Shown: positions 24,501 to 38,024 of the stretch, piece after piece | How the letters are laid out: each line of letters begins with the position of its first letter | How positions within the stretch are numbered: the stretch's first letter is position 1 | Assembly (NCBI GenBank): GCA_029204225.1 | Contig: CM055097.1 | Coordinates: forward strand, 27,001,039 to 27,065,038 | Source of the DNA: Diphasiastrum complanatum | Taxonomy: Eukaryota; Streptophyta; Lycopodiopsida; Lycopodiales; Lycopodiaceae | Reading direction: 5' to 3' | DNA: 64,000 nucleotides | Notes under the pieces: generated by a model | Databases searched by the model: none | What the model saw: only the letters and a program-made list of their open reading frames with translations | What the model was told of the DNA's origin: nothing | Program-made: the position numbers and the translations under genes

Positions 24501-27500
24501 TACACTCTCTGTCATTTTCTTTTATACTAGACAATTTTATATTTTTTGTAGTCATTTATTGGTCATGTATGTTTCATGTCTACCATTTAAATGAAAGTAT
24601 CAGAAGATTCATCCTCTGTATATATTCACTTGTTGTATTTTAGCATAACAATTTTTACAATTAACACCCTTAAATGAAATTTAAATTTCAAATATACCTG
24701 TCAAATAGAACCATAGTTTTATGTTTACCTTTCAGTTCAAAAATTTACACCAAGCAAATCTTTGACATGTATTGCAACTTACAAATACCAAGCCTATTCA
24801 AAATGTTTGATGGTCATTGTCGCAACATTCTTAAAGCTACTATATTTGTCTTTGATTACTAGATTATTTGAATTTACACCAAATGAATCTTTGACATATG
24901 TATTGCAACTTAAATATATCAAGCCTACCCAAAATGCTTCATGGTCATTGTTGCAACATTCTTAAAGCTACTATATTTGTCTTTGATTACTAGATTATTT
25001 GAATTCAAACATATACTTGTCTACTATCACATTTATTAGCCTCAATCCAAAGTGTGGATTGACAATGCATGCATGCCAATGTGGGCAAGTTGATGGTAAG
25101 TACTAAAAGTCTCAAGAAGTATGCTTCATGATTAGTACATTAGTCTTCTTTGCTTGTAATTGGCCCAATCGTCTTAAGTCAACTCCACCTGGTAAATAAT
25201 GGTCCTCCAACATATGGTGGGTTCGAGAGGAGTACTTCATCTTATACAAGTCAGTAGTCATACAAAAGAGACCACATAAGAGAAACTTGAGAGGCAATGA
25301 CATTGCTTTCAAAAGATGCAATTGAGTTGCCACTATGTAAAAAAGAGGGCTGGAGTTTAAGACTATTCCGGGAGGTCAATCGATATTAGAAGTTTTAGTA
25401 CAACATGTATATATGCATTCAGAAATCAAAGTACATGATATCAATCATCATGATCATCGAAAATGTAATTGTAAGTATATCAAAACATATGTACTCTACA
25501 ACAATCATAGGTGATTTTCTTTATTGATGCTTTTCAGATTATAATTTAAATGCTTCAACATTGTTTTTTTCTTTTAGATTTATATCCATCATGCATAAGT
25601 GAATGAGAGCCAACACAATCACTTGTAGGAATATTGGACGTGATTCACTCTGATGTTAGAAAGTTGCAATACAGAAGATGTCCAAAGGAACTTGCAGATT
25701 GTGGTATCTAACTTTATGAATATTTATATACGCCACAAACGGATGGAGGTTTTGGCAAGCTCGAAGAAATTCCATTGCCTAGTTTTTAAAGTGATGAGTG
25801 GCCTACTCCTGACAGCATTGTTTATGAATCCTTGAAATGCAAGCTACTCATTGATATTAGAAATGCTATGAAGATAAGCACATGCTCGAAAATTGTTCAC
25901 CTAAGTTGGTTTATTTCATTACATATATTTGTCGATTTTTTCTCAAGTGCTAGGACACCAACTTTATTTGTTTGCAAGGATTTATCATATGAGACTTTGT
26001 CAGATCTCATGGATCAAGGTTGGGATAGTAAAACAAATAATGACATAGAATGCAGGATTAAAAAGTCTTCAATGATCTTTCGTTATCATATCGAAAAACA
26101 AATGCCCAGTCTCACATTTAGCTATCAGAAATAGTACATGGCTACCACTGATCAAGACTTTGAACTAAATGGTTGTACAAACCGAATGGAGATAAGCATT
26201 ATCTACAATGAGAAATATTTGACTATGGTTGAGGTGGAAGAGCATTGGAAGCTTGATTTTATCAAAACAGAGCTCATGTTATTACAAACCAACAGATTTA
26301 TCATCAACGGAAGACTCGTAAGTACTTTATGTTTACTGCCATTTCAAAATAGTACAAAATCATTGAAAATGACATAATTTATAATTGCACATTCACTAAT
26401 ATTTGTCATGTCACAGATGCGAAAAAGACGAGCTGATAACGTGTTGCAAAGATCTACCTACAACAATTACCATTGTGAAAGAACAATAGTTTCAAATAAA
26501 GTTTAGTAGCATTATATAATGTGTACCACCCACAGTTGAATGAATCATTTTGTTGGGGTGACTGCAAAAAAAATTTAGCACACAAGAAATCAATTAAGAA
26601 ACTAAATCAATCATACTATCAAGCTTTTTTTATACATCAACTTTTAGTACTCTAGTTTTGCCGTCTTTCTCGAAGTCCTGAGTGGCAGCAATAATATATG
26701 TCTAGACTGAGTGTTGAATATTAGAAGCCTTACCAGTATGATTTGATAGGAATCAACGTGCTTTTGCTCCTCCTATGCTTGGCTTAGCTGGCATATTCTC
26801 ATTCTTTCCTGAAAGCTTTTCATCTTTTTGAATTTTGACATGTCCGTTATGAAGTCCTACTTTTGATAAAACATCTTCTAATTAAGAGATAGCTTCCTTT
26901 GCTGATGATGTTGGCTTACTATTCCAAGCAAAAACAATATGAAGATAAATGATCTTTTCTATTAATCTAACTTCTGCATGAAGAGTGCAAACATGCTCAT
27001 TTTTCAAGGGGATAGACAGCATATTCTGCATATTCTCTAATAATTCTTGTACTTCTAATAACATCTTTTGTCATTTCCATGCAGTACAAACAAGGGTGTT
27101 TTGATGTAGCACCTTGAGAGACATTATATATACATTTCAATGTTTTTAAATCACCTGCTAAGTGCCATTCAACTTTGAAGTCTCCAACTCTTGGAACATT
27201 GAGAAGTCCTCCATCCATATGGTCCTTGATGATCCTAGGATAAGATGTCCTTGAGAATGTTCATGATAATATATCATGATCTTCCTTCAGCACACCTGTC
27301 CAAAGAATTAATTAGACTTAGTTAACAAAAAATTAATACTATTCAATGAATGTAATGTAATAATGAGGCTAGTTACTTAAAACGTTGCCAACCACCATAT
27401 ATCATTTTCTGACTGGACACTGAATTTGAAATCTTCTTGGTCCTTCTGTTTGTGATAGTGCACCATTCATGAGAGTTATACTAATCCTCTCTATTTTTTG

Positions 27501-36594: not shown

Positions 36595-38024
36595 ATGACA
36601 AAGCTTTATCATCTTTATATGGATCTGTCACCAGAATATGCTCTACTCAGGATAAAAAACTCAAAGCAACCCAAATTGTCAACTTCTGATATGGTCCGAT
36701 ACAGGGAGGAAAAGTTAAAGCATGTAGATTTATGGTCATCAAGAACATTGTATCCTATTGGTCCATGTTTATTGCAACATCCAGATTCTCATTCAGTGAG
36801 TCAGTTAATAATCTATATGTGTCATGGTAAAAATGGTCTTTTGGGTTACTGTGAGAATTTGATGCTCTATGGGAATGCACATTTAATGCAAAGAATACAT
36901 TATTTGGAAGAGGAATCAAGGAAAATATCAAAGGAGTGCGAAGAAAAATCTACAAAGTTGAAAGCTTGTTTGGATGAAAATGAGATGCTCAAGAAGGAGA
37001 TCCAAAGGTTGAAACCTTCATTATACAACTAGTAATAATGAGATAAAAACTGCATTTCAATCCATGCGTATATGTGCTCAACAGAAAGGTCCGAAGCAAC
37101 AAGAGGAAAAGACTAGTAAACAAGGATATATGTGATCTATCATCTAGAGGAGGTCATAGAAAAAGACAAATTCGTGCAGTCAAGTAAGTTATAGCTTATT
37201 TGGTATTGAATATTGCTTGAACTTTTTGATTCATTCATGATTACTAATTTGTTATTTATTCTTTTCAACTTTCTGTTGATTTGCTTATTATATACTACTG
37301 TGAATACTATGAGTGTCCTAATTTCTACTGACATTTTCATGAACATTATGTTTGCAATGCAGATCAGCATTGGTTGTTGAAGACCATTTGGTCGATGAGA
37401 TTTCAATTGGAAACTCACTAGGCTCTATCTTGACTTCTAAATCTATGAAATCAATGTTAAACAACAAGAAAATGAAAAAGATTAAGGCTTGAATTACTGA
37501 TTGCATTATGGATGAAGTTGGAAAAATATTAGACACTACATTGCTTCAGGGGACATGTGACTTTTCTAGCATCAGTAGGGAAGCATATGCAACAATGTTT
37601 AAGATGATAAAGGAGGCATTTGCACAGGTAAATATTAAAAAGTTTCCAATTCCATGACCATTTCATCTTTAAAAAAAAAAATGTTAAACCAAGGTATGCA
37701 GACAATAGCTAGTAATCCATCTCATATCAATGAAGTGTATTGCTCAAAAGGAGAAAGTCTAGCTTATAACAATTCCAACAATTTATTTATTGATATTAAT
37801 CAGTTACTAACATTCATCATAAATTTTTACGATACTACAAATGAGAATGTCAATAACAAGGTGATAGTTGTTCTCAAATTAGATGAGTCTAAAACTATAA
37901 AAGGACAAAAAATGGAAAGAGTCAGTCTCATGATCATGAATGGAGCACTTTCAAATTCAGAAGACTCAAAAGGCCTCAATTTCAGTGTTCAATCAAAAAA
38001 TGATATTTGGTGGTTGGCAGCTCA
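36595..38024 (+). pseudogene. Unknown transposase-like element gene, copy B (plus strand)
   Basis: Exon 1 is 36595-37183 and exon 2 37363-38024, joined at AA|GTAAGT and TGCAG|ATCAGC, exactly as in copy A. Start M-T-K-L-Y-H-L matches copy A M-T-T-L-Y-H-L. Then come W-S-S-R-T-L-Y-P, G-L-L-G-Y-C-E, a coiled coil, a frame break near 37030-37090, and N-K-R-K-R ahead of R-A-V-K. Exon 2 gives S-R-E-A-Y-A-T-M-F, Y-N-N-S-N-N-L-F-I-D, V-L-K-L-D-E-S, G-Q-K-M-E-R-V and I-W-W-L-A-A-H, followed by a GTATAA donor. A TGA lies near 37489 and the frame shifts again near 37655. Exon 3 is absent: LTR-like sequence begins at about 38110. Roughly half the residues match copy A in exon 2 by eye. Confidence 0.7.

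Follow-up and report, generated by a model that had tools for sequence, protein, structure and literature searches.

Results

Two decayed copies of one spliced gene

A 64,000-nucleotide stretch of Diphasiastrum complanatum contig CM055097.1 (assembly GCA_029204225.1), which we call the window and to which positions refer unless another contig or copy is named, contains two diverged copies of the same spliced gene: copy A on the minus strand (28763-26560) and copy B on the plus strand (36595-38031). They belong to two subfamilies, A and B, of an element that is most probably a DNA transposon and is not assigned to a superfamily. The best-identified product of this element is not its transposase; it is a fusion of histone H3 with an Ulp1-like domain, encoded by a second gene.

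An initial annotation had placed two diverged copies of one gene at these sites, and the sequence and the exon comparison bear this out. The A and B proteins are 37% identical in exon 1 (145 codons compared) and 48% identical in exon 2 (122 codons). The identical AA/GTAAG splice border that it proposed (slash, exon end) is present as CAA/GTAAG: exon 1 closes with CAA/GTAAGC in copy A and CAA/GTAAGT in copy B, and exon 2 begins at 28046 and 37363, respectively. Intron 1 measures 94 bp in A and 179 bp in B, is phase 2 in both, and interrupts the same codon (K, then S-A). The motifs SxEAYAT, YNxSNNLFxD, VLKLDES, GQKxER and IWWLA occur in both copies. GDLKTLK, HPCLYC and HAEVRLIEK occur, as had been described, in copy A only, because the homology of copy B to the family stops at 38090.

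The initial annotation needs correcting on two counts. Both window copies are pseudogenes, copy A with frameshifts near 27.96 and 27.42 kb and stops further on, copy B with a frameshift near 37.03 kb and several stops, and a third remnant of the family lies in the region (Table 1).

Both copies retain parts of the element outside the gene. The terminal repeat of copy A (CATTAGAGGAGTTCTCAATATCAAAAAGACCCTTT) matches, inverted, the 3' end of an A-type copy elsewhere in the genome (L033, 6024-6058) over 35 bp at 100%, and the 5' border of copy B recurs in nine further copies on our list, a pair of which have one common flank. Copy A also keeps an accessory gene, M2, whose amino acid (aa) sequence is 56% and 84% identical to M2 pieces from other elements, and a C48 motif at 26567-26490 that alone scores 12.9 bits against Pfam C48, below the cutoff. 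Although this motif is kept, the H3 part was not found in window copy A.

A high-copy family with inverted ends

We searched the window's own 1.74-Gb assembly and scored 150 candidates for each query. All 150 scored candidates matched for copy B exon 1 (from 7,513 unscored first-look candidates), for copy A exon 2 (from 10,745) and for exon 1 of a further subfamily, C (from 8,047). Since every scored candidate matches for each of the two window queries, the resemblance between A and B is not chance, and the earlier view of a real family rather than noise holds. Copies are likely to number in the thousands; the unscored candidates are loose and we made no count.

We fetched 20 B-type stretches of up to 9.9 kb and extended four. 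Two of them, E15 and E23, show 90-95% identity along a collinear stretch of about 10.2 kb; E23 spans 10,239 bp from CATTAG to CTAATG, and in E15 the 5' repeat is missing its first bases. The ends of both subfamilies are inverted and share CATTAGAG; B-type elements begin with CATTAGAGAAAATATGGGCCC... and end with the reverse complement of CATTAGAGAAACTTAGAGCCC... The CATTAG border is present in 10 of the 17 listed B-type copies (16 of the 20 fetched, plus window copy B). Flanks are unrelated in most copies compared, and the inverted borders are common to them. The family has the dispersed copies with terminal inverted repeats expected of a DNA (cut-and-paste) transposon, and the high copy number and inverted ends are those that the initial annotation had looked for.

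A full-length B-type element of about 10.2 kb carries four genes: gene 1 (plus strand), M1 (minus), gene 2 (plus) and M2 (minus). In the A-type copy L033 the order is gene 1, the C-terminal half of H3, C48 pieces, M2 and the terminal repeat, a deletion having fused gene 1 straight to the second half of H3. M1 and M2, which lie on the strand opposite to genes 1 and 2, matched no family above its cutoff. Between M1 and gene 2, at about 7.8-8.9 kb, E15 has a tandem duplication of roughly 0.5-0.6 kb whose units are 81-82% alike; it is present in E23 and E09 too and is possibly regulatory.

Gene 1, a putative transposase

Gene 1 starts with an exon that encodes a coiled coil and a basic patch (exon 1) and reads on through KLDES, GDLKT...HPCLYC and CTLHAEVR..EK to a C-terminal GMEKSHWQAR. 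KLDES and GDLKT are conserved in subfamilies A, B and C; the readings of GMEKSH come from B and C only. The D of KLDES, the D of GDLKT and the E of GMEKSH, each conserved wherever readable between subfamilies, are candidate acidic residues, and the product may possess a DDE (Asp-Asp-Glu) core. A comparable D...D-CxxC...E arrangement in cnidarian and insect proteins offers a lead, not a test. Between A and B, the proportion of synonymous differences in gene 1 (pS) is 0.68-0.82, near saturation, and that of nonsynonymous differences (pN) is 0.17-0.42.

We rejected assignment to a named transposase through Pfam, NCBIfam and PHROGs, which returned just weak coiled-coil-type or spurious matches below any cutoff. 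A scan of IMG/VR with two short peptide patterns gave 131 pattern stretches and confirmed no gene 1 relative. One gene 1 match, at C12:8550484-8550915, was reported within a 3,600-aa open frame, perhaps a stretch of N.

Gene 2 joins histone H3 to an Ulp1/C48-like domain

The first open frame of gene 2 runs from M-ARTKSTARA... through a histone H3 fold and a linker into the start of a C48-like domain. The H3 domain, scored from one copy (L015, with X at its stop), matches Pfam PF00125 at E 1.7e-24 and H3 in PDB at E 5.9e-20, the best PDB matches being H3. A genome search with the element H3 again matched 150 of 150 scored candidates, of 7,287. The frame is open from H3 to the protease start in two of the three copies fetched: L040 has an uninterrupted run of 373 codons starting at the first Met, L041 resembles it, and L039 departs from this sequence earlier.

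The H3 is part of the element. Our two lists of 150 matches, one for gene 1 and one for H3, contain 14 gene-1/H3 pairs within 15 kb (0.39 expected), all on the same strand with H3 5,049-6,038 bp downstream, and no opposite-strand pair within that distance. Duplicates of another counted insertion make up at least two of these 14 pairs: the two C5 copies have common flanks, as do C577 and C8.

The remaining C48 pieces lie downstream of the first open frame and are, we infer, spliced into one protein with H3. Joined by hand, the A-type pieces reach 26.0 bits (E 9.8e-6) against a Pfam cutoff of 20.7. B-type pieces drew nothing credible from PDB (best E 0.15). Of the His-Asp-Cys catalytic triad, the C48-like domains show the His-Trp and Cys-Gly/Ala-Trp motifs, and the position expected to hold Asp reads V/K in both types.

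The part of the initial annotation that describes an unrecognised, intron-bearing family stands; its single transposase-like gene missed the multi-gene nature of the element and the H3-Ulp1-like product. This fusion, the element's notable feature, sits outside the coordinates then given.

Divergence, descent and tail of the element H3

In the H3 fold, comparison of the sole A-type copy used (L031, with one internal stop and one extra residue left out) with six B-type copies gave pS of 0.76-0.83, which is saturated, and pN of 0.30-0.32. Synonymous sites are saturated and nonsynonymous changes few; the protein was therefore long maintained. Inside B, the ratio of nonsynonymous to synonymous rates (dN/dS) is 0.28-0.72 in 14 of 15 pairs, the fifteenth (L040/L021) having a dS of 0, as expected from a mix of a constrained past and decay.

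The element H3 of A and B shares 47-51% of its residues with canonical plant H3 and 43-52% with two plant CENH3 rows. In a tree whose CENH3, CENP-A and H3 reference rows, like those of the identity comparison, were entered by hand, A and B group at 93%. Together with a third type, E, they stand apart from all other rows (83% bootstrap, 0.95 FastTree), and the nodes linking A, B and E to plant CENH3 or H3 reach 59-68% (CENH3 pair 68%, neighbouring node 59%). E is a single copy (L050, C7:61150862-61151248) with the tail ARTKQIARPKST and a stop in the fold. The host's own canonical H3 genes are kept, with 13 matches at 97-99%; nine of these 13 lie on one contig (C11, 30.7-51.8 Mb).

The element H3 shares the histone-fold helices, FED and KRVTIMPKD with canonical H3 and plant CENH3. 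It differs from them in LLIPRAPF, in a long C-terminal extension and in a shortened tail without K9 and K27 sites. The B-type tail reads ARTKSTARAITT... (ARTKSTARA) or ARTKSTAHAI..., and the A-type tail DRRKQTRRDFF... Both have a lysine at position 4 and none at 9, both are shortened and without the K27 region, and neither contains an ARKS motif. In canonical H3, K9 and K27 are sites of silencing methyl marks.

An abundant further set of H3 sequences, D-type, was initially suspected to belong to the A/B family and was set aside, as it forms its own tree lineage (100%). D-type sequences carry a region rich in proline at the N-terminus and stop right behind the fold, matched in 150 of 150 scored candidates (of 6,394), and made up nine of the ten small loci fetched after the canonical-H3 search.

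Discussion

We think it fairly probable that copies A and B are decayed members of two old subfamilies of an inverted-repeat-bounded, high-copy, transposon-like family whose H3-C48 protein may keep the element expressible. The gene 1 product would cut and join at the CATTAG ends, and the gene 2 protein would enter nucleosomes at or near the element. Nucleosomes with a tail lacking K9 and K27 could not receive the usual silencing methyl marks, and the tethered protease-like domain would strip SUMO from silencing factors; jointly, both effects would let the element resist silencing and remain expressible. We propose this anti-silencing mechanism because of the K9/K27-less tail and the tethered C48-like domain. 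The anatomy is read directly from the copies; the mechanism that we infer from it is possible, if doubtful.

Several observations weigh against this explanation. The 5' repeat is absent from seven of the 17 listed B-type copies, and from the A-type copies L033 and L034 in the stretch read. These numbers include pairs with a common flank that appear to be segmental duplicates (L015/L016, L010/L019 and L014/L018 among the seven without the border, L017/L027 among the ten with it). The interpretation as a transposon is weakest in the missing target-site duplication: none was seen at any of the three independent insertions for which we read both ends (E12, E23 and L021), all of them old copies. 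C577 has the same flanks as L021 and was counted with it as one insertion, and for C10, C21 and C12, which we guessed to be full-length, both ends were not obtained. Gene 1 pieces have no Pfam match above cutoff, and a gene 1 profile matched nothing among PDB sequences.

Gene 2 adds points of the same kind. H3 was seen in seven of the 20 first-fetched B-type stretches (L009, L012, L015, L016, L021, L023 and L025); the other 13 end early, are cut or deleted before the H3 site, or have lost H3. Many element H3 copies carry a stop, and the A-type tail is known from a single copy whose fold contains a stop. The B-type C48 composite of two copies scores 16.3 bits, below the Pfam cutoff. The position of the expected catalytic Asp is V or K in both types, which makes protease activity doubtful; the protease-like domain may be dead.

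Passages of the report on Pseudocercospora fijiensis and its relatives describe a hAT element of 9.5-9.9 kb with inverted ends, an H3 sequence and hundreds of copies (PMC6710886). As described there, the P. fijiensis element has a recognisable hAT domain, 20-bp repeats, an 8-bp target duplication and a copy of the host H3 inactivated by repeat-induced point mutation (RIP). Our element resembles it in length, in inverted ends and in carrying H3. Unlike it, gene 1 pieces have no Pfam hAT domain, no 8-bp duplication was seen at the three insertions, and the H3 is diverged, in frame with a protease-like domain and present in two old subfamilies. Plant MULE and CACTA (Tnp2) elements carry ULP1 regions, and the passages on them mention no histone (PMC2528002). 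Like these, ours appears to be a plant DNA transposon with a C48/Ulp1-like domain; it differs from them, as far as those passages go, in its unassigned transposase and in an H3 domain ahead of the C48-like one in a single gene. Its termini are CATTAG, not CACTA or CACTG, and gene 1 pieces have no Pfam match to Tnp2 or to a MULE transposase, in keeping with the earlier statement that hAT, MULE and CACTA signatures do not fit. The passages on neither kind of element describe such a fusion. Among the papers listed by our literature search, which did not extend to subscription papers or Repbase, we found no report of this element or of a plant transposon-borne H3, and the H3-protease fusion appears to be new.

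The P. fijiensis precedent, in which a captured H3 was inactivated by RIP (in the passages cited, PMC6710886), raises the alternative that the H3 here is a captured host gene fragment amplified without function for the element, as the stops in many copies would also allow. We consider this unlikely: the domain shows just 47-51% identity to canonical H3, shares its reading frame with a protease-like domain, occurs in A- and B-type elements alike, and stayed similar as a protein despite saturated synonymous sites. An H3 derived from CENH3, which would direct the protein, or the element itself, to chromatin that is centromeric or competent for CENH3, is in our judgement improbable to a like degree. 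LLIPRAPF resembles the LLIP.APF of plant CENH3 sequences and loop 1 of the A-type is one residue longer, like that of rice CENH3; B-type copies, however, have no such extension, gene 1 matches occur on every contig from C1 to C23, and the branches of 59-68% around A, B and E do not settle the origin.

Four genes and inverted ends might also be expected of an endogenous virus or a Maverick-like element. This is very improbable given that the scanned pieces contain no viral hallmark domain, that the two-pattern scan of IMG/VR confirmed no relative of gene 1, and that about 10 kb is short for a Maverick. Spliced genes and constraint at the protein level would suit a dispersed, non-mobile host gene family, an explanation to which we give scarcely any weight in view of thousands of candidate copies and, in most of those compared, common inverted borders with unrelated flanks.

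Transposons are known to evade silencing. If the anti-silencing explanation is true, an element protein able to replace H3 in the element's own nucleosomes would make such evasion directly testable. The catalogue would also gain a transposase family not yet assigned and a fast-evolving H3 lineage that lies outside the host's set and has thousands of candidate copies.

Other features of the window

The third, more diverged remnant of the family occupies 31.5-36.0 kb, directly before the 5' end of copy B (36204); copy B is inserted beside or into this remnant. Across 32 residues, the 3' part of the remnant's gene 1 is 84% identical in aa to the L034 gene of subfamily C. Within this remnant lie open frames (31775-33203; LDGSNYHLWKFKM) that we take to be Copia-gag-like. 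Open frames at 6642-7393 and 32403-32720, with FRKAFDxVP and GVKQGC.LSPTLF, are presumably like the reverse transcriptase of retrotransposons without long terminal repeats (non-LTR), and those at 21404-22631 presumably resemble a host gene of the isoflavone/pinoresinol-reductase-like (NmrA) type.

Table 1. Family features in the window, and examples of D-type H3 elsewhere in the assembly.
Feature	Position	Strand	Basis or remark
Copy A 5' terminal inverted repeat, CATTAGAGGAGTTCTCAATATCAAAAAGACCCTTT	29005..29039	-	35 bp
Copy A gene 1 exon 1, coiled coil and basic patch	28141..28763	-	encoded aa 40% identical to those of B-type exon 1
Copy A intron 1, phase 2, CAA/GTAAG ... GCAG/A	28047..28140	-	sequence
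Copy A gene 1 exon 2 (KLDES, GQK.ER, IWWLA), frameshifted, end approximate	27380..28046	-	
Copy A gene 1 exon 3 onward (GDLKTLK, HPCLYC, CTLHAEVRLIEK), stops, ends approximate	26560..27290	-	
Copy A Ulp1/C48 catalytic-Cys motif remnant (QQNDSFNCGWYTLYN)	26490..26567	-	tblastn E 3.3e-6 to B-type motif
Copy A convergent accessory gene M2, opposite strand to gene 1	25362..26131	+	
Third copy, gene 1 exon 3 fragment (GDLKALK)	31480..31614	+	42-49% aa identity, E 2.5e-8 and 1.4e-6
Third copy, gene 1 3' part (HWQARGAFHRATNHGGHNS...), near subfamily C	34388..34587	+	
Third copy, convergent accessory gene M1	34644..36001	-	25-48% aa identity to B-type M1, best E 1.8e-15
Copy B 5' terminal inverted repeat (CATTAGAGAAAATACGGGCCC)	36204..36224	+	single match (1 mismatch); chance expectation 0.00
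Copy B gene 1 exon 1, frameshifted near 37030	36595..37183	+	homology
Copy B intron 1, phase 2, CAA/GTAAG ... GCAG/A	37184..37362	+	sequence
Copy B gene 1 exon 2, with stops	37363..38031	+	homology
D-type H3 example (L042)	C10:2473192-2473503		
D-type H3 example (L047)	C156:47828-48142

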